Origin: a virus
DNA: 36,365 nt
Strand: one strand, 5' to 3'
IMG/VR virus record: IMGVR_UViG_3300042312_000111
Location: 1-36,365 of that record
The position numbers and the translations under genes were made by a program. Below are positions 844-35,715 of the stretch, piece after piece. Within the stretch, counting starts at the first letter, position 1. The number at the start of each line of letters is the position of its first letter. The notes under the pieces are model-generated. The model saw only the letters and a list, made by a program, of their open reading frames with translations, was not told the origin of the DNA and ran no database searches.

Positions 844-1239
844 TTATCGTTTCATTCTTGCCATAAAATCAACTGATGTCCAATAAACATTTAATGTAGG
901 ATTGTAAACATTTGATTCGCTGGACATATATTTAATAGTTTGAACACTTATACCGTTTACTGTGCCTACAAATCTATCTAAGCTATTTCTGATGTTGTTT
1001 GCAAGCTCTTGCGTACTATCATAACTTTGAGTGTAACAGTCTATTTGTATTTGTACTTCTTCCAAATTACTTTGACCATCTTTAAAATCAATGGCAGTAG
1101 AGTTAATGATAGTGTAAACACAGAAGGGATATTGAACATCTTGAGGAGTTAAATCTGGATATATCTTTTGCCCAACAATCGCTATGACTGATGGCTCTGC
1201 GCTTAACCTTCCGTATATTACCTTTCCTATCATTCCCAA
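844..1239 (-). CDS. Tail completion/terminator protein (DUF3168-like)
   Basis: A 131-residue protein starting MGMIGKVIYGRLSAEPSV. The order of an N-terminal helix, a short 'YPxCVY' strand (QYPFCVYTIIN), a second strand region with a VQIQIDCYTQ core and a terminal strand before a basic end is typical of DUF3168/tail terminator proteins, which cap the tail tube at the neck. It overlaps the preceding gp10-like gene by 10 bases, and this gene pair normally precedes the tail tube gene, as here. The family call is from pattern and gene order. Confidence 0.7.
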   Translation of the reverse strand: MGMIGKVIYGRLSAEPSVIAIVGQKIYPDLTPQDVQYPFCVYTIINSTAIDFKDGQSNLEEVQIQIDCYTQSYDSTQELANNIRNSLDRFVGTVNGISVQTIKYMSSESNVYNPTLNVYWTSVDFMARMKR

Positions 1240-1858: not shown

Positions 1859-2263
1859 TTATGCAACTGTTAAGGTTAATGCAGATATATTAAATTTCAC
1901 CTCATCACCTACTGCAATCGCTTTACCAGCCGTTGGAGTTAATGCACCATAGAATAGTAAATCTCCTCCTGTTGCAGATGAAAACACCGCTACAAAAGTG
2001 GCAGTAGCCGCAGCCGTTGCACTTGATGTAATAGTAAATGCAGATGCATTTGTAATAGTACCGTTACCTCCAGTTCCTCTTGTCCATGACCCTGTGCCAG
2101 ATGCAACAGTATATCTTGAATATAAGGCACCAGTTCCCGAACCTGCATCGGTTGGATCTTGTGAATACAACTGTACAAAAGTTGCAGTAGGAGCAGCTGC
2201 AAAGGTTGTACCTGCAATCCATCCTGTTATTTGGTCTTCCAAATAATTTGAAAAAGCACTCAT
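1859..2263 (-). CDS. Small Thr/Ala/Gly-rich virion-type protein
   Basis: A 134-residue protein beginning MSAFSNYLEDQITGWIAG. The start (a short helix with NYLED) followed by ATFVQLYSQDPTDAG and a beta-rich, low-complexity body matches a widespread group of small phage virion proteins in which 'NYLEdkildhl.gg....pa.lyvgL' opens the chain. They are often annotated as tail-fibre-like or left hypothetical. It is the last gene of the accessory adhesin/glycosyltransferase block between head closure and gp10-like genes. A decoration or fibre role is inferred. Confidence 0.55.
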   Translation of the reverse strand: MSAFSNYLEDQITGWIAGTTFAAAPTATFVQLYSQDPTDAGSGTGALYSRYTVASGTGSWTRGTGGNGTITNASAFTITSSATAAATATFVAVFSSATGGDLLFYGALTPTAGKAIAVGDEVKFNISALTLTVA

Positions 2264-2269
2264 AGTTTA

Positions 2270-3244
2270 TTAGTTTAAATTATTTAAAATTAGTTCTCTC
2301 TTTTTGTTTGTCTTATCCACTCTAAGCACATCGTTTAAATACTCCCTTCCCTCCTTCACTATCGCCTCTCTGTCAAAGTCCTTGTTTTTTACTGCCTCCA
2401 TGACATCGCCAAAGTTGTTATACTTTATCACACCTGGAATGTTATACTCTGGTATGCCCTTTGGCGCAATAGTTACACCGCCAGCGACTAACATCTCAAT
2501 GGCAAATATATTACTCTTTGCAAAGTTGAAATCGTTTTTGAGTAACGGAAATAAACCATAGTGACATTGGCTATTGTTTAATGTTTCAAAGTAGCCAAAC
2601 AAAGAACTATTCCATTCCTTTGTTTTTACCTTCGGGAACAAGTGAGCCATGATAAAATCCTGTATGCCAAGCATGGCAACATCGCAGCTCTCATCTTCCG
2701 CTAACTCATTTATATAACTTGCTATGCTGCCAATGTCATCCAAGTGATGCATTGAACCGCGCCAAATAAATCTTATCTTATCTTCTATTTTAGGTACTGG
2801 CATAAATGGCTGAATGATTGGATTCCATCCATTATTTATAACTGTGCTTGCAATGCCTTCGTGATATGGCATATAATACTTTTGCAAGGCATCAGTAGAA
2901 TAAATAATATGGTCAGCAAAACCAAAGCAATCTTCCACCGTTTTACGCATTGCCTCATGGCTTAGTCCAACGTGTGCAGGATTAGTCCTTGTTGTTTCAT
3001 GTAGATTATCGTCATGGTCAATGATAATCTTTTTGCCCATTCTCTTACACTCCCTTAGCATTTCAAAGTAAGCCATGCCATTAGGAGACTTAGCCACTAC
3101 AACATCAACATCCATTAAATCATACCACTTTGCCGATTCAATAGCAAGGTATCTAATATCATGCCCCATGTAGGCATAGCAGCCAACAGTTCTGTAAAAG
3201 TCGGTAGCAGGAGAGTTGATGTTTGTAAAAATGGCTATTTTCAT
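2270..3244 (-). CDS. Glycosyltransferase-like protein (GT-B, GT4-type), copy 1
   Basis: A 324-residue protein with a two-domain GT-B pattern. The N-terminal half has strand-helix repeats ending in KKIIIDHDDNLH (about 91-102). The C-terminal half has NNGWNP, RFIWRGS (about 158-164) and SNIFAIEMLVAGG (about 244-256), the last matching the donor-nucleotide-binding glutamate region of group 1 glycosyltransferases. It is clearly paralogous to 13926-14912: ATDFYRT/ATDYYRT, the WRG motif and SNIFAIE are shared. The gene sits among adhesin genes and overlaps the upstream gene by 4 bases. The acceptor (virion protein, DNA or host glycan) cannot be read from sequence. Confidence 0.75.
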   Translation of the reverse strand: MKIAIFTNINSPATDFYRTVGCYAYMGHDIRYLAIESAKWYDLMDVDVVVAKSPNGMAYFEMLRECKRMGKKIIIDHDDNLHETTRTNPAHVGLSHEAMRKTVEDCFGFADHIIYSTDALQKYYMPYHEGIASTVINNGWNPIIQPFMPVPKIEDKIRFIWRGSMHHLDDIGSIASYINELAEDESCDVAMLGIQDFIMAHLFPKVKTKEWNSSLFGYFETLNNSQCHYGLFPLLKNDFNFAKSNIFAIEMLVAGGVTIAPKGIPEYNIPGVIKYNNFGDVMEAVKNKDFDREAIVKEGREYLNDVLRVDKTNKKRELILNNLN

Positions 3245-3678
3245 TGTGTTAGGTTTATTTCTTCCCAGTTGCCTGTTTCCTCATTCCATGTGTATATTTT
3301 ACCATCGTTTGGATAAGGAATTGGCGATTGCCAAAGGCAACTAAATTCATCTAATACCCATGAAGGAAAAGGTTTAGGTGGGATAAAAGCATCCCTTATA
3401 CTATCGTAATAATAGCCTATTCCTGCATAGTTTTTTCTAAATGCCTTGCTTTGGTCAAGGCTTGGTGTATTATTGTTGGCTTGATAATGGATGCCGCCAC
3501 GCGTAGAGTATGATGTTCTTTTACATTTTAATCCTTTAAATTGTGAATACCAATTTTCCCAATTTTCAGAAGAACCTCCAACCATTATACCATTATCATT
3601 TTGATATATGCCTTCATCAACACCAGATATTACTGATATTACAAAATTATTTTCATTAAGAAATGCGTAATAAGCCAT
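3241..3678 (-). CDS. Conserved phage protein, tail-fibre-associated type
   Basis: A 145-residue protein, MAYYAFLNENNFVISVISGV. The pattern is that of a family I recognise from T4-like cyanophages and other aquatic phages: an N-terminal 'A.ld.nn.V..Vi' strand pair, an invariant-looking FRKNYAGIGYYYDSIRDAFI block (about 81-100), then PPKPFPSWVLDE...PYPNDGKIYTWNEETGNW (about 101-138). The family has no established activity but is usually found with fibre or structural genes. It lies 6 bases downstream of the head-closure/adhesin fusion and overlaps the glycosyltransferase start, so the three are co-expressed. Confidence 0.65.
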   Translation of the reverse strand: MAYYAFLNENNFVISVISGVDEGIYQNDNGIMVGGSSENWENWYSQFKGLKCKRTSYSTRGGIHYQANNNTPSLDQSKAFRKNYAGIGYYYDSIRDAFIPPKPFPSWVLDEFSCLWQSPIPYPNDGKIYTWNEETGNWEEINLTQ

Positions 3679-3684
3679 ATAATT

Positions 3685-5793
3685 TTAGCTAAATGATATA
3701 TTTCCAGTGCCATTAGTTATAACTTTATAACTATAACTTCCATCAGTACCTGTCGTATCTGCAGTTAATCCAGCTCCAACGGTAATAGTTGCGCTTGATG
3801 TTAACCATCTTACTATTACAACGCCTCTACCTCCTTGACCACCAGAAGCATTATCTGCAGTGGAATTTCCTCCACCTCCTCCACCTGTGTTTACACTTCC
3901 ACTTGTACCATTACCTGCACCTCCACCACCTGTTCCTCCAGAACCAAAATTAGAAGATGATACGCCTCCGCTTGTACCACCTCCTCCACCGCCACCAGCT
4001 CTTGTAACTGAATTTCCAGTAATTGATGAACTTAAACCATTTCCACCATTTCCGCCTTGAGAATTAGCATAAACTCCAGATGCTCCACTTCCAACAGCAG
4101 AAGCACCGCCACCGCCCGAACCACCAGCGTTAAGTACATTTGCTTCTGTGCCACCATTATTACCTTGACCAGATGTCGCAGTTCCTCCACCTGCGGAAGA
4201 ATTACCTCCATCTCCACCGCCACTTCCTCCATTGCCACCACCATTACCATACGCTGCACCAAAACCACCTCCATCAGATATTATTGTATCTAATTTTGAT
4301 AAAACTCCAACAGAACCATTATTGTTTGAATTTCCTGAACCGTTTCCACCCGAACCACCGCCGCCAATTTCAACAGTATAATTTGTACTTTTTGTTAATG
4401 TAGTTGTACCTGTTAAATAACCACCTGCACCTCCACCGCCACCGTGTTGTCTACTACCTCCTCCACCGCCACCAGCAATAACAAGGTAATCAACAGATAC
4501 AGTATTTGACACTACATCCAATGTCGCACTCGTCACCGTTGCCGCTCCCGTGACGCTTGCCGCTACATTGTCAACTGTGGTTATGGTTGCAGCCGTTGTG
4601 CCGTTTGCAGTTAAAGAACTTTCAAGCGTTGCTGTTCTAAACAATTCAGCATTTGTTACAGAGCCAGCAGCCATTAATGAAGATACAAATGTAACTCCGA
4701 TACCTGCCTCAACACTTGTCTGTGCTGTTGCAGTCATTTCTGCAGAGATAATCCTTGTTATTTGTGCCTCAACTGTTGTTTGAGCCGTAGCATTTAATTC
4801 CGCATTGACTGTATAGGATAATGTAGCATCTGCCGTAGTGTTAGCCGTAGCAGTTGCAGCTGCGTTTACTGGTATGGTTAACTGTGCTGTACTTTGTGTG
4901 TTAGCCGTAGCAGTTGCACTTGCCTCAATTACTTTGGTAAGCGTAGCGTTTAATTCTGTGGTTGCACTTGTGCTTGAACTACTTTCTAATGTAACTGTAC
5001 GTTTAATTTCAGCCGAAACAGTGCCTAATCCACTTAATGCAGCATCCACACTAACCAAACCTTGCGTTACTACATCAACATCAGCCGATGTAGTAGCATT
5101 GGCATTTAATGTACTTATTAAAGTTTTGCTCACTAAAGCATCGCTTACTAAAGTAGCATTTGCATTTAGTGTACTATCTATATTTATAGCTTTAGTTACT
5201 GCAGCAGCTAAAGTGCCGTTTGCCGTAACATCGCTATTAATTGGTATCACTTTTGTAGCATCAGCAGAAAGATTGCCAGATGCAGAGAGAGAAGCCTCCA
5301 CCAAGACTTGACCTTGTTGGCTCACTGTTAATTCAGCGTTCGTCGTTGCTATGGCATTCATAGCAGCAAGCACATTGTGTATCACTTTAATATTAGATGA
5401 TAGACTGGCATTAGCTGAAAGGATGGCAGCAACGGAAACACCGGTAAGAATATAAGAGTCGTAAAACTCACCTTGAAAACTTATAAATCTTCTATCGTGA
5501 CTTACCTTTATATTTCTTACTTGATATAACTTCTCATTCCAAATAATACGACTTTCTTCGTCTATGCCTGTCGTATATCTTATAGTAAAGTCGCTTATAT
5601 TTTTAGCAGTATTCTTTCCATCAATCACAGTTTCATTGGATGGAGGTAACTTGCTTTCGGCATTTGCCCAAACGGTAGTTAAATCTGCCCATGACTCGGA
5701 GGCATAGCCTGTGTCTGATTTTGAACGTGTGACATTTTGGATAGTAATCCTGTCACGCATTCGACCAATAATTTCATTTTTGTTATACTTCAT
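3685..5793 (-). CDS. Head-closure protein fused to a repeat-rich and glycine-rich adhesin
   Basis: A 702-residue protein in three parts. Residues 1-112 (MKYNKNEIIGRMRDRITIQN, then Y.S.SW.DL.TVWA and a terminal FQGEFYD) look like an SPP1 gp16/HK97-type head-tail joining domain, normally a complete protein of about 110 residues. Residues about 118-432 are imperfect Ala/Thr/Val/Asn-rich repeats of roughly 25 residues (such as STLNANATTSADVDV), probably a beta-rich stalk. Residues about 434-663 begin VDYLVIAGGGGGG and continue as a glycine-rich domain like those of phage tip adhesins. A 39-residue cap follows. The fusion would place an adhesin at the phage neck. No stop codon or frameshift separates the parts. 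Confidence 0.8.
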   Translation of the reverse strand: MKYNKNEIIGRMRDRITIQNVTRSKSDTGYASESWADLTTVWANAESKLPPSNETVIDGKNTAKNISDFTIRYTTGIDEESRIIWNEKLYQVRNIKVSHDRRFISFQGEFYDSYILTGVSVAAILSANASLSSNIKVIHNVLAAMNAIATTNAELTVSQQGQVLVEASLSASGNLSADATKVIPINSDVTANGTLAAAVTKAINIDSTLNANATLVSDALVSKTLISTLNANATTSADVDVVTQGLVSVDAALSGLGTVSAEIKRTVTLESSSSTSATTELNATLTKVIEASATATANTQSTAQLTIPVNAAATATANTTADATLSYTVNAELNATAQTTVEAQITRIISAEMTATAQTSVEAGIGVTFVSSLMAAGSVTNAELFRTATLESSLTANGTTAATITTVDNVAASVTGAATVTSATLDVVSNTVSVDYLVIAGGGGGGSRQHGGGGGAGGYLTGTTTLTKSTNYTVEIGGGGSGGNGSGNSNNNGSVGVLSKLDTIISDGGGFGAAYGNGGGNGGSGGGDGGNSSAGGGTATSGQGNNGGTEANVLNAGGSGGGGASAVGSGASGVYANSQGGNGGNGLSSSITGNSVTRAGGGGGGGTSGGVSSSNFGSGGTGGGGAGNGTSGSVNTGGGGGGNSTADNASGGQGGRGVVIVRWLTSSATITVGAGLTADTTGTDGSYSYKVITNGTGNISFS

Positions 5794-6416: not shown

Positions 6417-7643
6417 TTACAGATTCTTTAGGTGCTTAATTGCAGCCGTATTAAGCAATTTGCCATCATAACGAGCATACATTAAAAAACCTATTTCCAT
6501 CTCATCCATGAAACGCTCACGCAATGGCACAAGGACATTGTTGGCAACGGCACGGATTATATACTTGCTCCAATCTCCAAAGTAAATAATTTTTGCATCA
6601 GCAGCCTGTGCAGATGGTAAATCATTGTTCACAAAGAAATTGTAACCAAGCAATCTGTCTGGTGTACCTTCTCTCAATGATGGTTGGAATAATGGATTAT
6701 TTGCAGTATCAAAGTTTAGCTTTCTAACCGCGCTCAAAATTTGGTCATGCATCATAAATGCAGCAGATGGTGAGTTACGGTAAGCAATATCAACAGAGTG
6801 AACAAGGTCAACAAGATTAGCAGCAGTAAACGCGCCAGTAGATGCAGATTCTACACCGGAAGGTGCAACATCTTTAAATCCTGTTGGTTTACCTGATCCA
6901 TCACCGGTAGTAAATGCAGTGTTTAATGCTCTACCTAATCTCTCGCCTAACATAATTGGTAACTCACTGTTTAATAGACCAAACTCGTCATTTGCCCATT
7001 CAACAGATACTTTAACCAATGTGTTACAAACGTGAGCTGCAAAAGTTTCACGAGTAAATGTCATATCTTGAACAGTTACCGCTCCACCTTCTGTGTGCCA
7101 GTTTGCAGATGTACCAGTATCATTTACCTTTGGCCAGTACAAAGTACCTGCTTGAGGAGTCGTTATAATACGGCTAACCTGTAACATTGGGCCGTAGTAA
7201 GCCATTGTTCTTTCCAACTCATTTGAGAATTGGTAGGGAATAACATAACCACCAGCCAAGCCAGTCTCGGCAGTTGTAATAGTAGCAGTACCACGCATTT
7301 CACGAAGCAAGTTACTTTCTTTGTTATTCAACTCTCTCTTTGCAATAGCCTTCATGAATGCAGAGTGATACTCTGGAGATTTAACAATCTCTCTTTTGTC
7401 AGTTGGCAATGCAGCAAGTGTGTCTTCAATAACACTAACTCCTCTTGTTTCAGAGTTAATTTCATTCCATCTTTCTAAACGAGAAATCTGGTCTGTATAA
7501 CTTTTAAAAGAGACATCAGCTGCATCCCATTGTGCAGACTCATCAGATGACATTAATCTACCTTCTGATGCGGCTCTTTTTTGTAGGTCTTCCATTATTG
7601 CGTAATCGGAAGCCCGCTTTTCTCTTAATTCCTTTGCAGTCAT
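6417..7643 (-). CDS. Major capsid protein (HK97 fold)
   Basis: A 408-residue protein. Residues 1-100 are a charged coiled-coil delta/scaffold segment (LREKRASDYAIMEDLQKRA at the start) typical of HK97-type capsid precursors and removed by the protease. The mature part begins near the TAETGLAGGYVIPYQFSNEL segment (about 118-137), with TPQAGTLYWPKV (about 161-172), the E-loop and spine regions, FTTGDGSGKPTGF (about 238-250) and a C-terminal P-domain segment with YFGDWSKYIIR (about 352-362). It follows the protease gene directly (shared junction at 7643), the canonical portal-protease-capsid order. Confidence 0.95.
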   Translation of the reverse strand: MTAKELREKRASDYAIMEDLQKRAASEGRLMSSDESAQWDAADVSFKSYTDQISRLERWNEINSETRGVSVIEDTLAALPTDKREIVKSPEYHSAFMKAIAKRELNNKESNLLREMRGTATITTAETGLAGGYVIPYQFSNELERTMAYYGPMLQVSRIITTPQAGTLYWPKVNDTGTSANWHTEGGAVTVQDMTFTRETFAAHVCNTLVKVSVEWANDEFGLLNSELPIMLGERLGRALNTAFTTGDGSGKPTGFKDVAPSGVESASTGAFTAANLVDLVHSVDIAYRNSPSAAFMMHDQILSAVRKLNFDTANNPLFQPSLREGTPDRLLGYNFFVNNDLPSAQAADAKIIYFGDWSKYIIRAVANNVLVPLRERFMDEMEIGFLMYARYDGKLLNTAAIKHLKNL

Positions 7644-8578
7644 TATTTTGTTTTTAAATTTAATAAGTGCAGGGCATTCCTGCGTAATTCGTTCTGTATA
7701 TTAATTTCAGATTTTACTGATATGTCAATAACACTTTGTAATTCATCATCTACCTTTCCTGCTATCTGCTCATAGCTGCGCTTTGCAACCATTGTGTCTG
7801 GATTTGCTGGATAAGTAACAGGAGAAACATCATATACTTTCTTAATGCCTTTAATTATTCTTTTTGGTTTCATACCTGCTCTTTCCTCCCAGTCTTCTGC
7901 CTCAACACTAAAAGCAAATGATGATTGATAAACATCACCACGTTTAACCATCTCTAAAAGATCATTACCTAAAGTAGTGTTTGGTGCCTCAAATTCATAT
8001 TCCATCGCATTACCAGTAACCTTTAATTTTAAGGTACCGGATTTAGTCCTTGCCAAAACCATGTTAGCATCGTGATTAAACAATGCTACTACATCTGTCA
8101 TATCTGAATTGGTAAATACATCGGAGGTCATTTCTTCATCATACCAACCCATATCGTAGGCAGAGTTAAACACTGTAGCAGTGCCTACGATGGTGCGAGA
8201 TTCTGGCATAGCCCTAAACTCATAATTTATACTTCTCTTTTCCATTGTTTCTTCTTTTGACCTTTCGTCCATTATTTTATTAGCTGTTCTTTCTGCCCAG
8301 GGCAACATCGTTGAACCACCCCAAGCGTCATACATGATTGAACCGCATATTTCATTATCGTTATCATCAAAATATTTGCCTTGGTCATATACCTTGGCTC
8401 TACTTAAAAAACTATAAGTGCGTATCACTTCATCGTCCGAAAGTTCTTGTCTGCTTGACAACTGCTTAGCTCTTGACCAGCCCACGGAAGTTCCACACTG
8501 GCTACCATTATCTTCTTTATGCTGCAATGCTTTCTTTGCGGCATTAGTTGCTGACTGTGGGTAATTACTGTACGGCAT
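7643..8578 (-). CDS. HK97-family prohead protease with an extra N-terminal domain
   Basis: A 311-residue protein. The C-terminal two-thirds (from about residue 115) is an S78/U35 prohead protease: YEFRAMPESRTIVGTATVFN, catalytic His in ALFNHDANMVLART (about 165-178), and the catalytic Ser region VYQSSFAFSV (about 216-225) followed by VYDVSPVTYPANPDT. Residues 1-110 form a separate domain (SATNAAKKALQHKEDNGSQC, WSRAKQLSSRQELS, TYSFLSRAKVYD, CGSIMYDAWGG) that occurs in other phages fused to or beside proteases. The protease matures the prohead by cleaving scaffold and capsid delta domains. It overlaps the portal gene by 14 bases. Confidence 0.9.
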   Translation of the reverse strand: MPYSNYPQSATNAAKKALQHKEDNGSQCGTSVGWSRAKQLSSRQELSDDEVIRTYSFLSRAKVYDQGKYFDDNDNEICGSIMYDAWGGSTMLPWAERTANKIMDERSKEETMEKRSINYEFRAMPESRTIVGTATVFNSAYDMGWYDEEMTSDVFTNSDMTDVVALFNHDANMVLARTKSGTLKLKVTGNAMEYEFEAPNTTLGNDLLEMVKRGDVYQSSFAFSVEAEDWEERAGMKPKRIIKGIKKVYDVSPVTYPANPDTMVAKRSYEQIAGKVDDELQSVIDISVKSEINIQNELRRNALHLLNLKTK

Positions 8579-13925: not shown

Positions 13926-14912
13926 CTATAGTCCTTTAAGTATCTTGTATCTTGTTTGATTAAGTAAGTCTATGTGTAACACTTCATTAAGATACTTCCT
14001 TCCATCCTTAACGAGAGATAGCTTATTAATGTTGCCAGATATAATAGCTAAGATAAGGTCAAAGAACTGGTGTGGTGTATCGTAAGACATTACTCCAGGT
14101 ATATTAAACTCCTTAAAATATACATCAGCTAAGACTGGCATACCATTAGCAAGACATTCAATAGCAAAGATATTAGACTTACTTTCATTAAATTCATTCC
14201 TTACTAATGGATAGTAACCATAATCGCCTTCTATCCTTTGCATAAATGTAAAATAAATAAACATACTATTCCATTCCACAAAGTTAGCCTTCTTGCTAAA
14301 GTCGTACATCATGAACTTAGGCATACCAAAGAAAGTAAACTCTGTATCTAATTCCATAGCCTTGTTAAGCTGCTCCTTTATGGTATGTAAGTCAGCAAAG
14401 TGTGTGCTGCCACCACGCCAAACAAACCTTGGAGGATTGTGTTGCTCTTCCACCTTTATCATAGGTAGGTCAGTATGTGACCATCCATTAGGAATAACAA
14501 ACATAGGCTTATCATGGCTCAAAGGTTTATATAAGTCATATAACTTTTGAGTAGATACTATAATAACATCAGCAAATATAAATGTGTCTTGTATTTGCTT
14601 TTGCACTTGAGGATTGCTAAAGTATGCAGATGCAGGATTATCTTCTGGCACATTTAATAAGTGATCGTCAAAATCAATTATAACAGCCTTTCCCATTCTC
14701 TTTGCATCTGCCATGATACCAAGAGAGGCAGTTGAGTTAGGACGCTGAATAATTACTATATCAGTATTATAGATGTCATACCAGGCTGCTTTTTCTTGTT
14801 GGCAGATAACTAATTCAAATTTCTTTTGCAATGCAAGACGAGAGAAAGGGCCTATTGTCCTGTAGTAATCAGTCGCTTGACTCTTCGAAGATGTAAATAT
14901 AGTAGCCTTCAT
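13926..14912 (-). CDS. Glycosyltransferase-like protein (GT-B, GT4-type), copy 2
   Basis: A 328-residue paralogue of the protein at 2270-3244. Shared landmarks are ATDYYRTIGPF (about 13-23), AAWYDIYNTDIVII (about 42-55), GKAVIIDFDDHLL (about 92-104), IPNGWSH, RFVWRGG (about 161-167), VEWNSMF and SNIFAIECLANGMPV (about 247-261). The last is the donor-binding glutamate region of group 1 transferases. It is the second gene of the leftward late operon; its ATG overlaps the stop of the RHH-like gene (ATGA). Substrate unknown. A gene with this architecture at the head of the virion operon suggests modification of virion or host-surface components. Confidence 0.75.
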   Translation of the reverse strand: MKATIFTSSKSQATDYYRTIGPFSRLALQKKFELVICQQEKAAWYDIYNTDIVIIQRPNSTASLGIMADAKRMGKAVIIDFDDHLLNVPEDNPASAYFSNPQVQKQIQDTFIFADVIIVSTQKLYDLYKPLSHDKPMFVIPNGWSHTDLPMIKVEEQHNPPRFVWRGGSTHFADLHTIKEQLNKAMELDTEFTFFGMPKFMMYDFSKKANFVEWNSMFIYFTFMQRIEGDYGYYPLVRNEFNESKSNIFAIECLANGMPVLADVYFKEFNIPGVMSYDTPHQFFDLILAIISGNINKLSLVKDGRKYLNEVLHIDLLNQTRYKILKGL

Positions 14913-28984: not shown

Positions 28985-31087
28985 TTAATTTGTACTTCTT
29001 TGCATGATTATCCAATTTACACCATCACTAACAAGAGTAACGGCTTTATTATTTGTTGGATTTAAAATAGCTGTACCTGTACTACCAGTAGGAGCTGAAG
29101 TAAAAGGTATAACATTAGATGATGCAGATTGTAATTGCCCTGTACCTGATTGACGAATATGCAACTCTTTGCCAGGATATGTAGCTGCACTTGGAAGAGT
29201 TAAAGTTGTAAGAACACTTGTATTTATATCTAACCATGATGTATTTACACTAACGGTAAAAGAGGAGCTTGTAGAATATGTGTATTGTCTTTCAAGCCAA
29301 GGAGTATTTACTCTACCACCAAATGTTCCAGTTGATGAAACATCTATTGTTCCTGTAAATGTTTTATTTCCTCCAAATGTTTGAGTAGTTGCACTTACAA
29401 CTCCTATTGTTGAACTTCCAGCTAATGCCATTGATATAACTGGTGTAGTTGTTCCTGTTGCAACGCTTAAACCATTTGCAGGACTTCCTGCGCTAACGCT
29501 TGTCACCGTGCCACTGCCACCTGTTGCAGACAATGTGCCACTTGTCAAAGATAGACCTGTACCAATTCCAACTGTTGCAAATCTATCTGTAGAAGATAAT
29601 CCTGCTAATCTTGTTGCAGTGTAGGTATAATCTTTAAATACTGCTCTTCCGTTAAATTGTGTTATACCCTCAAATACTTTATCACCACTAAATTGCTGTG
29701 TACCTGTTGATGTAACAATTCCAGGAGTACCAAATGCTGCGTCTGCTATACTTATAACTGGAGTAGTTGTACCTGTGGCAACAGATATTGCACCAGAACC
29801 ACTAACACTTGTAACTGTGCCATTTCCTTTGCCATTAAAAGTAGTCCAATCTGTACTTGATAAAAATCCATTTACACTTCCACTTGCTTGTGTAATAGAA
29901 AATGTCCTATTTGCAGATAAATCACCTCCTCCTTGCAATGGTGCAGTTGTAGATATTGACCTTGTTAAAGGTGTGTAAGTCGAAGCTGCAACACCTGTAC
30001 GCAAATAATTTGTCAACATACTTGCCGTGTCACTGACCAACAAGGCCGCAGTTGTATCGCGCCATAATCCACTTTTATAATATAAACTTGCATTTGCAGA
30101 AGGTGAGCTAATTGCTAAATCATGGAGCTCATGCAATGCGTAACCAGAAGCCACTCTTATTGATATTGTGCCATTGTTTACATGAGAATTAATACAAAAG
30201 CCTATAGGCATATCAATGTTTGGCGCAACTGGTTCTATATCTGTCCAAACACCTGCCGTAGTTGGAGATGGGTAAAGGATTGCTCCAGTCGCAAAGGTAT
30301 CGGTGTTAACCTTTCTTATTTTTCCAAATGAAATAACGTAGCCGTCTTCACCGTTGCTTAAATCATGAGCAGTAATTCCTAATAAATATTTAGCGTCAAT
30401 ACTACCATTCGCAATAAACTTTGCAACGGTTATTCTTCCACTTGCACCAACCGTGCCATTAGCATACACGATGCTGCCTTTTGTAATAGTTGAGCCTGTT
30501 TGATTTTTAACAAGCCAAAAGTTTTTAAAGCCTAATTCGTTTGGTACATTGTCATTTAATCCAAGTACAACTGTTGCTAAATCGGAATCCCATCGCATTT
30601 TAGCCGTATCCACGTTGTTGGTAGGTACACCTACATTAAAAAACAATGAATCAACAGGCTGTGAAAAATTGTTGTTTACAATGACTGTATCGCTATTATT
30701 AAACTGCCATCCTCCTTTAGTTTTAATATAGCTAAATAAGACATTGTTAACTGTGTCAAATAGATGGTAGGCATTGTTTAAACTGCTTGGTTTTAATGCC
30801 ATTGTATCGTTTGATCTTCCTCTAAAAACCAACCCATCGCCACTCGTCTGATAACCAAGTCTCTGTTTGTTCCCTGTTGCTGGATACTGGGCAAAGGCAA
30901 TGGTGCAGGAGAGGAGGAGGAGAAAGGATAGTGTTTCTCTTTTCTTTGGAATCTTAATTTTGTTTATCATTTTACCTATGTATTTTCTTCCTAAACCAAG
31001 TGCCAGCTCTTGCACTAAAACACCTGCAACGCGCACAATGGCTTTTAAAAACTTTCTTTCTTTCTTAGGTGTAGGTATTTGTTCCAT
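28985..31087 (-). CDS. Tail fibre/adhesin with an internal signal peptide
   Basis: A 700-residue protein. Residues 1-39 are basic and amphipathic (EQIPTPKKERKFLKAIVRVA). Met40 begins a typical signal peptide: basic MINKIKIPKK, hydrophobic LSFLLLLSCTIAFA (53-66) and a probable AFA/Q cleavage site, followed by YPATGNKQRLGYQTSGDGLV, as in secreted Bacteroidota proteins. The rest is beta-rich fibre sequence with two copies of a GTVTSVS...SVATGTTTPVIS unit (from about 430 and 533) and a final globular tip ending VNWIIMQRSTN. It is last of the tail genes, usual for the receptor-binding fibre. Start overlaps the upstream gene by one base; starting at Met40 (30970) would give an exported form. Confidence 0.75.
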   Translation of the reverse strand: MEQIPTPKKERKFLKAIVRVAGVLVQELALGLGRKYIGKMINKIKIPKKRETLSFLLLLSCTIAFAQYPATGNKQRLGYQTSGDGLVFRGRSNDTMALKPSSLNNAYHLFDTVNNVLFSYIKTKGGWQFNNSDTVIVNNNFSQPVDSLFFNVGVPTNNVDTAKMRWDSDLATVVLGLNDNVPNELGFKNFWLVKNQTGSTITKGSIVYANGTVGASGRITVAKFIANGSIDAKYLLGITAHDLSNGEDGYVISFGKIRKVNTDTFATGAILYPSPTTAGVWTDIEPVAPNIDMPIGFCINSHVNNGTISIRVASGYALHELHDLAISSPSANASLYYKSGLWRDTTAALLVSDTASMLTNYLRTGVAASTYTPLTRSISTTAPLQGGGDLSANRTFSITQASGSVNGFLSSTDWTTFNGKGNGTVTSVSGSGAISVATGTTTPVISIADAAFGTPGIVTSTGTQQFSGDKVFEGITQFNGRAVFKDYTYTATRLAGLSSTDRFATVGIGTGLSLTSGTLSATGGSGTVTSVSAGSPANGLSVATGTTTPVISMALAGSSTIGVVSATTQTFGGNKTFTGTIDVSSTGTFGGRVNTPWLERQYTYSTSSSFTVSVNTSWLDINTSVLTTLTLPSAATYPGKELHIRQSGTGQLQSASSNVIPFTSAPTGSTGTAILNPTNNKAVTLVSDGVNWIIMQRSTN

Positions 31088-31461: not shown

Positions 31462-33673
31462 GTTCTATTTTAAAGTAATCACCTTGCCAAATCTCTGTTT
31501 TTAAATCAAAACTACCTCTTTCAAAAACGTAATATCCAGATGAATATTCTATGACCTTGTGAGGAAGGTAAGGATTGTCAACTGATAAATTTTGGAATGG
31601 CATATCTACCATGCGTAGCTTTGGTGTGAGCTGTCCGCGTATAACTTCATTTACTAATAGCTGAGTGACATTGTTAAAGCCTGATCCGCTGCTAACATCC
31701 CATGAGCTGCTATTTTCATAGGTGCCAGATTCTAATACTTTTAATCCACCATCCGTTGTTTTACTTGGCCCATCGCCAAGGTATGTATCAAGGCTAAAGA
31801 CTGTGGAAGATTTATCGTCATTGTCAGAGCCATATTCAAGGATGTCACTTTGCCCAGAGACTGCACCAGTAGGAAGAAATTCAAGATAATTACTGCTTAA
31901 TAAATATGATATACTAAAATTACCAGACACATTTGTTCCTGCCTCATTTCTCATATTTTTTAAGCGCATCTCCCATACATACTCTGCACTCTCTGGAATG
32001 TCTAAGGTATCAAATGTAATAGTTTTATAAGCAACAAAAGCAGCATCTGCTGTTATTGTTTCCGTATTAAACTCATATTCGTAAAATGTATTTTCCCAAC
32101 TTGCAGCGTCTAATATAAAATTAAAACCATTAGTGTAAGTTACATTTCTTTTTAAATACTTATTTTCCTGCTTTACCTGTAATGATTTAATTTTGCCAGT
32201 AAAACCTGGAGATGACAAACTATCTAATTGTAATGTATCTGTGTTAGTTGATAAAATTACATAGTCATAATCACCACTTTCTGTAATTGTTTTTGTAACA
32301 CCACCTAAACGTAATCTAAGGCTACCACTATTTTCAATATCAACTTTTATTTTAACATAATACTTTCTACCAGATGTAACTGTGAAAGTAGTGTAGTATG
32401 CTACCGTTGCTATTATTGTACCTTCAAGTATTCCATTGTTTATAAACCAACCGCTGCCCAATGTCCAGTTAGCATCGGCAAAACCTTGCAATGGAAAGCT
32501 ATTAATAATAGATGCTACTTTTACGGCAAATACAAACTGAAAAGGCTCAAAGTTTACAGGATTTAAAGCTTGCGCATAAAAGCCAAGTATTCCTGTATAT
32601 GATAATCTTGCATCTGCATTTGTAGCGTCTAATGTCGGAGTGATTGTTGTTATTGGTGTGGTATTAGTAGCATAGTTATATTCTACTCCTGCTAATAAGT
32701 TTTGTTTAGCAAAGTGATTGTACCTAATAACTACATTTTTGAGTGCAGGATAGTATGTCCATTTACCTCCACTTAACCTCATTAAATCACTTCCTGGTAA
32801 ATTAGTCTGTATATTAGACATGGTAAAATCTAAAGTAAATGTACCAGATGTCTGTACTCCTAAAGCACTGTATTTAAAATATCTGTGAGCTGCAGGATTC
32901 CTTGCATATTCATTGACTTGAATAAACCAATATTGATTGCCAGAAAATATTAATCTTGCGCCAAATGTTTGACATATTTTTTTTAAGACATCATAGCAAC
33001 TTTGATAATTATAATTATTCTTTGTGTCTTTATGATAAAATGCCCTATGCTGTATAACTGTTAATAATGCGTAATCTTTACCAGCACTATAAGCAGTTGT
33101 ATTCTCATTCCAATTAAATACTGTGTGCAGCACTGGTAAGCTATTTGCCACCAGTTCACTCTGTACAAAATCAAGTTGATTAAGACAGTTTAAAATATGT
33201 TGTACTACTGTGTCCTGTCCATTGTAAGGCCCTACTGCACTTTTGTAATCCAATGTTTTCAACCATCCTAATCCATCAATGGCAGATATTTGAGCAACAT
33301 AACCAATAGACAAAGGGATGTCCTCAAATTGCACCAAATCTGTAACTATATAACCATACCAATTAAAAGATACTGTCGTATTATCATCCTCATAAGCCGT
33401 AACATCTATTGTAAACCTTCCTTCAACAGCTAATCCAATATCAAGAAGTAATGTTTGTAAATCATTATTATTTATAAGTAAAGATAAATTAAATGAAGAT
33501 CCAATAATAGGTGTAAATCTTTCTTGTCCTTGCTGGCTTTCGCTATCATATTGTAAGCCTAATGATATAGTATCAAATGTCCCAACAGCACCAGAATAAT
33601 TACTATCTTTTATTGATACAGTAATCTTTCTGCGTTTTTCGTTATATACTGTCGTTTGATACCTAACTCCCAT
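31451..33673 (-). CDS. Large tail-tip (baseplate hub-like) protein
   Basis: A 740-residue protein after the tape measure. The first 300 residues (VRYQTTVYNEKRRKITVSIK; LQTLLLDIGLAVEGRFTIDV; ALLTVIQHRAFYHKD; YDVLKKICQTFGARLIFSGN) match a tail protein found in many Bacteroidota phages and prophages, thought to act in the hub/distal-tail position. About residues 390-510 look like an inserted carbohydrate-binding beta-sandwich (ANWTLGSGWFINNGILEGTI; GSLRLRLGGVTKTITESGDY). Shares its first base with the tape measure stop. Confidence 0.7.
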   Translation of the reverse strand: MGVRYQTTVYNEKRRKITVSIKDSNYSGAVGTFDTISLGLQYDSESQQGQERFTPIIGSSFNLSLLINNNDLQTLLLDIGLAVEGRFTIDVTAYEDDNTTVSFNWYGYIVTDLVQFEDIPLSIGYVAQISAIDGLGWLKTLDYKSAVGPYNGQDTVVQHILNCLNQLDFVQSELVANSLPVLHTVFNWNENTTAYSAGKDYALLTVIQHRAFYHKDTKNNYNYQSCYDVLKKICQTFGARLIFSGNQYWFIQVNEYARNPAAHRYFKYSALGVQTSGTFTLDFTMSNIQTNLPGSDLMRLSGGKWTYYPALKNVVIRYNHFAKQNLLAGVEYNYATNTTPITTITPTLDATNADARLSYTGILGFYAQALNPVNFEPFQFVFAVKVASIINSFPLQGFADANWTLGSGWFINNGILEGTIIATVAYYTTFTVTSGRKYYVKIKVDIENSGSLRLRLGGVTKTITESGDYDYVILSTNTDTLQLDSLSSPGFTGKIKSLQVKQENKYLKRNVTYTNGFNFILDAASWENTFYEYEFNTETITADAAFVAYKTITFDTLDIPESAEYVWEMRLKNMRNEAGTNVSGNFSISYLLSSNYLEFLPTGAVSGQSDILEYGSDNDDKSSTVFSLDTYLGDGPSKTTDGGLKVLESGTYENSSSWDVSSGSGFNNVTQLLVNEVIRGQLTPKLRMVDMPFQNLSVDNPYLPHKVIEYSSGYYVFERGSFDLKTEIWQGDYFKIELDA

Positions 33674-35715
33674 TATTGTATTCTACTAAGACCTTTTTGT
33701 GATCTGTTTAGCAATATAATCAAATCATTTCCGCTTATCCTTGTTTCCAACACTCCTCCAATGCCCATGTCTCCCATCATTGACTTTAACTTTGACAAAG
33801 GTGCAATTACTTCCGGATCTACACGACTGTTCCTGTTATCTCCAACAGTTGCCATAGTAGGCCCAAATGCCAACCCGCCCTCTGCAAGTTTTGGAGCGCC
33901 AATCTTCATTATTAATGACCTTGCTACACCACCAGCAGCAGCAGCAATAGCAGGAGCAATAGCCACCATGAAAGGTGATAATGGTACAGATGCTAATGCT
34001 TTTGCTACATACATTCTAATAAAATTAGCAATTATATCAGCAATGCTTTTTCGTACAGCTGCTGCAAGTTCTTTCATACTTTCAAATCCACTTGCTGCCA
34101 ATTCACCAAAACTTAATATACTGGCAGCAATAATTTGTTGACCTTGTCCTAATGAATCATATGCACTTTTTGCCACTGGTGCAATTTTATTAAATGAATT
34201 AGCTACATCTTCATTTGTTTGTTTTAATCTTTCATTTGCGGCTGATATACTTTCTAATTTATCTGGCAGTAAATCTAAAGTCGGTAAAATTCCTATAACA
34301 CCTAAACCTGCACCCATTGAGGCAGCAGAACCTGCTCCACCACCACCTCCACCTGTTGGAGTAGTATCACTTGGTTCTGTCGGCATAGTTGGTGCAGTAA
34401 TACCACCACCGCCACCAGTTGCTTTTGCACCAGTGGTAAACAATGATGCAAGTTTGCCTTTTAAACTATCAACTGTATCTCCAATACTTTTAAACTCTGT
34501 AGCTACTATTCTTTGCTCCTTTTGATAGGATGTTAAACCATCAAGATTAAATAAATTTAACCCTAATGCTTTCTGTAGATAATCAATATTTTTTAAAACA
34601 TTAGATACTCCTTGCATTACAGAGTTTTTAATGTTTATCCATATATTTTTAAAGTTGTCGCTAAACGCCTTCCAGTTATCATAAACATACAAGGCAATAG
34701 CACCAATAGCAGCAATGGATGCAGTAACTACTAAAATCATTGGATTGGCAGCTAAATAGCTAAATGCTTTACTTATATTTCCTATTGCTTGTACTATTAA
34801 TTTTGATGCTCCGGCTAAAGCACCGTATGTGCTTATCAATTTACCTACAATAAATATAATAGGTCCAATCGATGCAGCCACTAAAGCAGCCTTTACGATA
34901 AAACCTTGTGTCTCTGGATTAAGAGCTTTAAATCCATCTACTAATCCTTGTATATATTTACTTAAACTTTCTGCAACCGCTTGTAAATTTAATGACTCAT
35001 TTATAGCCTTGCCAAATTCTGCTAAAGATGCCGTTACATTATCTTTTAAATTATCATAGGTATTGCCTAAACCACCTTGCGCTCTTTCCAATTTTGCTAA
35101 TGCAGATACAGAACGCGTTATAAATTCTTCACTACTTACACCTATTGCCCTTATGCCTTCCGCAGTCACTGTACCAAATTCCTCTTTCATTACACGCGCA
35201 AACTCTGGCAACCTTTCTTTTATCTGATTAAGATCTTCTTGCGTTACCTTACCAACTGCACTTATTTGACTTAATGCCAATGTAACTCCGCTAAACTGTT
35301 CAGCTCCTCCACCAGATCTCGCTACCGCATTACCAAACTGTGTTATAGTTTCCCTTGCTGCATCGGCAGACATTCCTACACTTTGCAAGGAGGCAGAAGC
35401 CTGCACAACTTGCGGCAAAGCAAGACCAGGATTCTCTGCAACTTTACGAAGTTTATCTAACTCCTCCTTTGCTCCTTCACTTGTACCCATGATGGCAATC
35501 AATCCATTCTCCAACTTCTCCATGTCGGCAAATGCCTTCAACGAAGCTGCACCGACACCAAGCAATGGCAGAGTAATAGACTGCGTCATTGTGCTGCCGA
35601 TGTTTTGCATCTGTGAGCCAAACTTTGTCATTCTACTTTCTACCTTGCCAAGTTCACGGGAAAGGCTCGAAACATCTATACCAAGTTTAAGATTTAACTG
35701 CGCTGCATTTGCCAT
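33673..35715 (-). CDS. Tape measure protein
   Basis: A 680-residue protein. LNLKLGIDVSSLSRELGKVE, then RMTKFGSQMQNIGSTMTQSI, then LPLLGVGAASLKAFADMEKL is the standard N-terminus of TP901-1-type tape measures. Around residues 265-340 are hydrophobic segments (IIFIVGKLISTYGALA; ILVVTASIAAIGAIALYVYD) associated with DNA ejection. A glycine-rich flexible linker (about 425-470) and a C-terminal tail end the chain. At about 0.15 nm per residue, the length suggests a tail near 100 nm, consistent with a siphovirus. It lies 2 bases downstream of the frameshifted chaperone frame. Confidence 0.9.
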   Translation of the reverse strand: MANAAQLNLKLGIDVSSLSRELGKVESRMTKFGSQMQNIGSTMTQSITLPLLGVGAASLKAFADMEKLENGLIAIMGTSEGAKEELDKLRKVAENPGLALPQVVQASASLQSVGMSADAARETITQFGNAVARSGGGAEQFSGVTLALSQISAVGKVTQEDLNQIKERLPEFARVMKEEFGTVTAEGIRAIGVSSEEFITRSVSALAKLERAQGGLGNTYDNLKDNVTASLAEFGKAINESLNLQAVAESLSKYIQGLVDGFKALNPETQGFIVKAALVAASIGPIIFIVGKLISTYGALAGASKLIVQAIGNISKAFSYLAANPMILVVTASIAAIGAIALYVYDNWKAFSDNFKNIWINIKNSVMQGVSNVLKNIDYLQKALGLNLFNLDGLTSYQKEQRIVATEFKSIGDTVDSLKGKLASLFTTGAKATGGGGGITAPTMPTEPSDTTPTGGGGGGAGSAASMGAGLGVIGILPTLDLLPDKLESISAANERLKQTNEDVANSFNKIAPVAKSAYDSLGQGQQIIAASILSFGELAASGFESMKELAAAVRKSIADIIANFIRMYVAKALASVPLSPFMVAIAPAIAAAAGGVARSLIMKIGAPKLAEGGLAFGPTMATVGDNRNSRVDPEVIAPLSKLKSMMGDMGIGGVLETRISGNDLIILLNRSQKGLSRIQ

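Follow-up and report, generated by a model that had tools for sequence, protein, structure and literature searches.

Few parts of a tailed phage are as constrained as its stopper, or head-closure protein, and the usual view places host recognition at the distal end of the tail. That division would be broken by a stopper serving at the same time as the foot of an adhesin with switchable tips, the case raised by the gene at 3685–5793 of the sequence analysed here, an IMG/VR virus record of 36.4 kb (the window). The gene order is that of an HK97-like siphophage: TerS, TerL, portal, S78 protease, capsid, gp6-like adaptor and the fused stopper-adhesin gene, followed by three further genes, a 194-aa gene at the position of HK97 gp10, tail terminator, tail tube, tape measure and tail genes (Table 1). 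Judged from the genes, it seems probable on balance that the fused gene encodes a neck-anchored adhesion fibre, the new element being its covalent fusion to the stopper. Neither the stopper alignment nor TerL, used as queries, found a prophage relative or a host among 85k bacterial genomes, and the only cultured relatives of the fusion were matches of 31–32% to the stopper part, in Pseudanabaena/Microcystis phages.

One reading frame, three domains

The original prediction placed a head-closure domain and an adhesin in one frame and gave no strand; the frame lies on the minus strand and is a single uninterrupted open reading frame of 702 aa. Pfam, NCBIfam, PHROG and AlphaFold/Foldseek agree on the head-closure domain that had been proposed for residues 1–112. 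PF05521 (Phage_HCP) matches residues 9–103 (E 1.9e-15, 57.8 bits against a curated cut-off of 25), NCBIfam TIGR01563 (gp16_SPP1 head closure protein) scores 25.8, above its cut-off of 20.6, the PHROG match is 'head closure Hc1', and hmmsearch against the PDB matched 2kz4 (E 2e-16) as well as 2kca/7z4w gp16. The full-length AF2 model is poor in this part (pLDDT ~35) and the fold assignment therefore rests on the stopper domain modelled alone (pLDDT 76), where residues 1–119 come out as a stopper fold. The Foldseek matches of this model at E<=0.001 are neck/stopper proteins from phages or GTAs; SPP1 gp16 (7z4w) and the RcGTA particle 6tba (TM 0.75/0.80 for the latter) head the list, which also includes Pam3, Milano and others. 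The adaptor gene abuts the fused gene, which is the canonical place of a stopper, terminator and tail tube come after the cassette, and the locus is the only PF05521 locus of the record. Profiles and model confirm residues 1–112 as an SPP1 gp16-type head-closure (stopper) domain, for which a DNA-gate function is predicted. These residues share with the stoppers of SPP1 (gp16) and RcGTA the family profile, a beta-barrel fold (as predicted) and a gene lying between those of adaptor and terminator; known members, however, are complete at about 100–130 residues, whereas 590 more residues, stalk and adhesin, follow here.

The Ala/Thr/Asn repeats noted earlier behind this domain are of low complexity and have a period of 20 residues, at which self-identity is 28% compared to 11% expected; the AF2 monomer gives no usable model of the stalk (pLDDT ~26). 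The glycine-rich C-terminal domain was also recovered, with a PF21722 (Gly_rich_2) match over residues 421–663 (E 1.2e-17, 65.2 bits against a cut-off of 24.3) and a compact glycine-rich fold mostly at pLDDT >90 in AF2. This fold resembles the Pam3 tail fibre (7ypx) and the Bxb1 tail tip (9d93), both with a Foldseek probability of 0.99 though at E 0.003–0.006; Pam3 was matched by hmmsearch at E about 0.008, and the 66 viral Foldseek matches to the tip are mostly glycine-rich proteins. In Pam3 and Bxb1 such domains sit on the tail fibre or tail tip, here the domain is attached to the head-closure protein.

Table 1. Features of the stopper-adhesin locus and of related loci; coordinates are those of the window unless a locus is named.
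Feature	Coordinates	Strand	Basis or remark
Head-closure/stopper domain, residues 1–112, SPP1 gp16-like, PF05521	5458..5793	minus	profiles, PDB matches, AF2/Foldseek; median dN/dS 0.08
Stalk, residues 113–430, Ala/Thr/Asn-rich, ~16 repeats of 20 residues	4504..5457	minus	period 20; median dN/dS 0.22
Glycine-rich adhesin-like tip, residues 431–702, exchangeable module	3688..4503	minus	PF21722, AF2, Foldseek
Tip-partner gene, 145 aa, phrog_7759	3241..3678	minus	phrog_7759 E 1e-35
Glycosyltransferase-like gene, 324 aa	2270..3244	minus	phrog_7162 E 4e-19
PF23140 virion fibre protein, 134 aa, podophage GP4 fiber I gp80 family	1859..2263	minus	Pfam E 1.8e-21; PDB 8jou_a E 7e-9
Tail terminator, PF11367, gp17-like	844..1239	minus	Pfam E 1.7e-13; phrog_347 E 8e-20; expected ring below stopper
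Head-tail adaptor, gp6/gp15-like, PF05135	5794..6354	minus	Pfam E 2e-11; phrog_442 E 7e-32; expected docking ring of stopper
Prohead protease	7643–8578		
Short tail fibre, 700 aa	28985..31087	minus	separate locus; length co-varies with neck fusion (length comparison and tree test)
Tape measure	33673–35715		large repetitive ORF; assigned by position
~165-aa N-terminal domain (alignment A3)	L238:3929–5581; L240:3968–5758; L245:4022–5764		
~240-aa N-terminal domain	L257:3747–5759		phage with tail sheath, head-tail adaptor gene nearby
Divergent stopper, short stalk and arabinofuranosidase-like tip, 514 aa	L256:4220–5764 (G041)		

Conservation of the fusion and switching of the neck state

Scanned with the stopper domain, IMG/VR yielded 71 loci, every one of which runs on into the stalk where it reaches past the junction. 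The same fusion, which the original prediction had proposed to look for in related phages, is common there and was found in about 70 contigs. Among the 62 distinct sequences, a frameshift or stop between the domains is absent from all, none has a stop before residue 400 while the contig continues, and no conserved internal start codon was found near the junction. As there is no stop, no conserved internal start and the same frame in relatives, the fusion is neither chance read-through nor an assembly error; the recurrence of the frame in about 70 contigs rules these out together with artefact and frame error. Translation of a separate adhesin from an internal start can be discarded as well, the only methionine near the junction (M145) being present in 39 of the 62. 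It is conceivable that the chain is made whole and then cut after the stopper domain, so that stalk and tip act elsewhere, either released or on the head or tail. Processing is common among phage structural proteins and a prohead protease is encoded in the window, yet cleavage gives no reason for the intact frame in every relative, nor why the stalk follows the stopper in every lineage with this stopper, and no cleavage motif was noticed on an unsystematic look; we consider such processing improbable.

The three domains differ in constraint, with median dN/dS relative to the window increasing from stopper to stalk (Table 1) and reaching 0.59 in the tip. In the closest relatives the tip has a dS of about 1 (saturated) beside a stopper dS of about 0.2, which argues that the tip was replaced by recombination while the rest of the gene descends.

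Sister phages of the window (e.g., G001, G002) are 99% identical to it in TerL, 95–98% in the capsid, 98–99% in the tail tube and 97% in the tape measure. Their locus holds a bare stopper of 114 aa, 41% identical to that of the window, with the next neck gene directly after, and has none of the adhesin, glycosyltransferase, phrog_7759 and PF23140 genes. No adhesin turned up at another place in five sister records, although these may be fragments. One could take the low identity to the sisters' stopper, together with the fact that stopper function is read from sequence and a predicted fold, as a sign that the PF05521 domain has become a mere anchor and that another protein closes the channel. 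This is very improbable, as the record has no other PF05521 locus, the gene follows the adaptor in the canonical order and no other part of the chain has as low a dN/dS.

A capsid (MCP) tree has 17 changes of neck state, at least seven of which are forced by well-supported branches, and on a tree of tail genes (tail tube, TAC2, tape measure) the neck state also changes at least seven times, trees of recombining phages being approximations. Changes in such number on two trees rule out that the fusion is a peculiarity of one lineage. They also amount to at least seven natural switches, on or off, between phages that are otherwise almost identical, and so to a ready-made comparison for the role of neck fibres, a question left open for T4 whiskers, lactococcal neck passage structures and phage A-1(L).

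Some loci are unusual. At L281:5294–5773 a fused-type stopper is followed by a stalk that ends after ~45 residues (159 aa in total) and the PF23140 gene is kept; this is apparently a natural deletion of the adhesin. L022 and L227 (G025) carry a stopper-adhesin close to that of L023, of the same length and with the same tip; the glycosyltransferase match is a short remnant and the downstream tail genes are only 28–57% identical to those of the window. Either the contig is chimeric or a distant phage has recently acquired the gene by recombination.

Tips, partner genes and other anchors

At least five classes of lectin-like tip were found, several of them carbohydrate-binding or glycosidase-like (Laminin_G_3, ArabFuran catalytic): Gly_rich_2, Laminin_G_3, arabinofuranosidase/LamG-like, DUF6923 repeat (propeller-like) and an unnamed helical class. 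The protein has, in residues 1–112, a conserved anchor with exchangeable carbohydrate-binding tips, a mark of neck fibres and neck passage structures as a functional class. In 59 of 61 cases the next gene can be told from the tip class. Glycine-rich tips are followed by a phrog_7759 gene (34/36), which stands after no other class, arabinofuranosidase-like tips by a 79-aa gene (12/12), helical tips by a gene of 71–75 aa (7/7) and propeller-like tips by a 278-aa gene that is glycosyltransferase-like by sequence (2/2), and Laminin_G_3 tips have no partner gene (4/4). As the next gene depends on the tip class, the exchanged unit is the tip with its partner. The phrog_7759 partner is probably a tip chaperone or cap, and the tip-partner pairs provide a list of small candidate fibre chaperones or caps.

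Two further genes accompany the fusion. All fused loci long enough to cover it have the PF23140 gene and all bare-stopper loci lack it; L111 and L112, which best score put among the fused loci in this count, are distant stand-alone stoppers. The family includes fibre I (gp80) of the Ralstonia podophage GP4 (PDB 8jou); in the window and its relatives, on the other hand, the gene is fixed to the stopper-adhesin cassette in a siphophage-type genome. No PF23140 gene was found in cultured phages by tblastn. The 324-aa glycosyltransferase-like gene is present in most fused loci and is missing from this place in bare-stopper loci. A related gene (about 38% identical) lies at 13926–14912 of the window; the former belongs to the neck cassette and the latter also occurs in bare-stopper phages.

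A scan with the PF23140 gene revealed similar stalks and tips on other N-terminal domains, just upstream of PF23140 and with only the small tip-partner gene in between. Two of these anchors, of ~165 and ~240 aa, belong to phages whose terminase differs or that have a tail sheath; a third is the divergent stopper of L256 (Table 1). The A3 and L257 anchor domains gave no match in Pfam, PHROG or NCBIfam, nor did A3 in the PDB, and their position suggests that they are neck or tail-terminator proteins.

A proposed neck fibre and the tail fibre

For the window it is proposed that the N-terminal domain forms the ring that a stopper makes between adaptor and terminator. If it behaves like SPP1 gp16, of which six copies lie between adaptor and tail (PMC9701221), a hexamer would close the DNA channel. 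Each copy would run on into a repetitive stalk of ~318 residues projecting from the neck, and the six stalks could form six single arms or two trimers, ending in lectin-like tips that would touch the host surface. Tip and small partner gene, here that of the phrog_7759 protein, are swapped as a cassette by recombination, and in this way the neck fibre could acquire a new specificity without any change to the conserved stopper. An obligate companion is the virion protein of the PF23140 family, perhaps a collar or fibre connector. A point against a neck fibre is that the C-terminus of the stopper contacts the tail terminator in models of TP901-1 (PMC10747895).

The fibre would resemble the lactococcal neck passage structures (NPS) of TP901-1 and 936 phages, long neck fibres whose N-terminus is conserved and whose carbohydrate-binding C-termini come in several exchangeable forms (PMC6669499), an arrangement shared, as far as can be inferred from genes, by the stopper-adhesin. 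The lactococcal NPS is, however, a separate protein with a BppU-like collar domain around portal/adaptor (PMC10747895), whereas the anchor here is the stopper itself, covalently joined, and the tail fibre changes alongside. With PF05521 and no BppU-like domain at its N-terminus, the protein would work like an NPS without being a member of that family. In the Anabaena myophage A-1(L), a bead chain of gp82/gp81/gp80 is docked non-covalently on the pentadecameric gp5 ring (PMC10966104); these neck fibres also carry a distal carbohydrate-binding module (CBM) but are multi-protein and non-covalent. The neck fibres in the literature compared are thus proteins of their own that dock on the neck. A stopper serving as the fibre base was not found described in an open-access subset of the literature, where absence is weak evidence.

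The original prediction set the fused adhesin apart from the tail fibre, and this holds: neck gene and fibre gene lie apart in the window, with tail genes between, and fibre length co-varies with the fusion. Fused phages in the clade of the window have complete tail fibres of 660–852 aa, which end 4–17 nt before the holin where the holin is on the contig; complete fibres of bare-stopper phages have 1088–1391 aa, 'short' and 'long' being a comparison between phages that implies no direction. The fibre of the fused phages is shorter, not lost. Where the region is covered in bare-stopper phages, most have a second fibre with a Peptidase_S74 chaperone domain next; G035 has a 624-nt gap after the fibre and no S74 match. 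Since the capsid tree gave only five independent pairs (5/5, p 0.0625), the tail-gene tree of the intervening genes was built, on which fibre class tracks neck state in 6/6 phylogenetically independent pairs (p 0.031), a small sample. Two further fused records, with open frames of 818 and 775 aa, conform by length. The rule does not hold everywhere, as in the divergent lineage L256/G041, also fused, the fibre frame runs for at least about 1180 aa to the contig end.

These data suggest a partial shift of host binding from the tail tip to the neck. Tips that are lectin-like and exchangeable speak for binding to a surface, and the correlated tail-fibre change argues that this binding serves infection. 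Since fused phages in the clade of the window have a shorter tail fibre and no S74-processed second fibre, part of host adhesion was probably taken over by the neck fibre. NPS-bearing phages likewise rarely have other adhesion decorations (PMC6669499). It may be asked whether the fibre is instead an accessory whisker that binds particles, mucus or glycans or senses the environment, with the tail fibre still deciding the host. The window phage does retain its 700-aa tail fibre, lactococcal phages can infect without their NPS, whose CBMs show weak host binding (PMC6669499), T4 whiskers act as an environmental sensor (as cited in PMC8265664), and in A-1(L) the CBM of the neck fibre failed to bind the host (PMC10966104), which also speaks against the neck-fibre reading in general. 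Mere decoration would however not predict the loss of about 1.7–2 kb of tail-fibre genes in the same phages, and the exchange of tips with tip-specific partners looks like receptor-driven diversification; we regard decoration as rather unlikely, albeit a serious contender to an adhesion fibre. It is tempting to go further and speculate that the stopper itself is the receptor-binding protein, binding having moved from the tail tip to the DNA-gate ring, that contact at the neck could couple mechanically to channel opening, and that the stalk-tip cassette is a mobile adhesion organ on different neck/tail-ring proteins of unrelated phages; this extended reading is doubtful and offered as speculation.

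The tail-fibre proteins have a peculiarity of their own. Both the fibre of the window (28985–31087) and that at L117:12315–13517 have a signal-peptide-like hydrophobic stretch near the N-terminus, ending in A-Q-Y-P, which is odd for virion proteins assembled in the cytoplasm.
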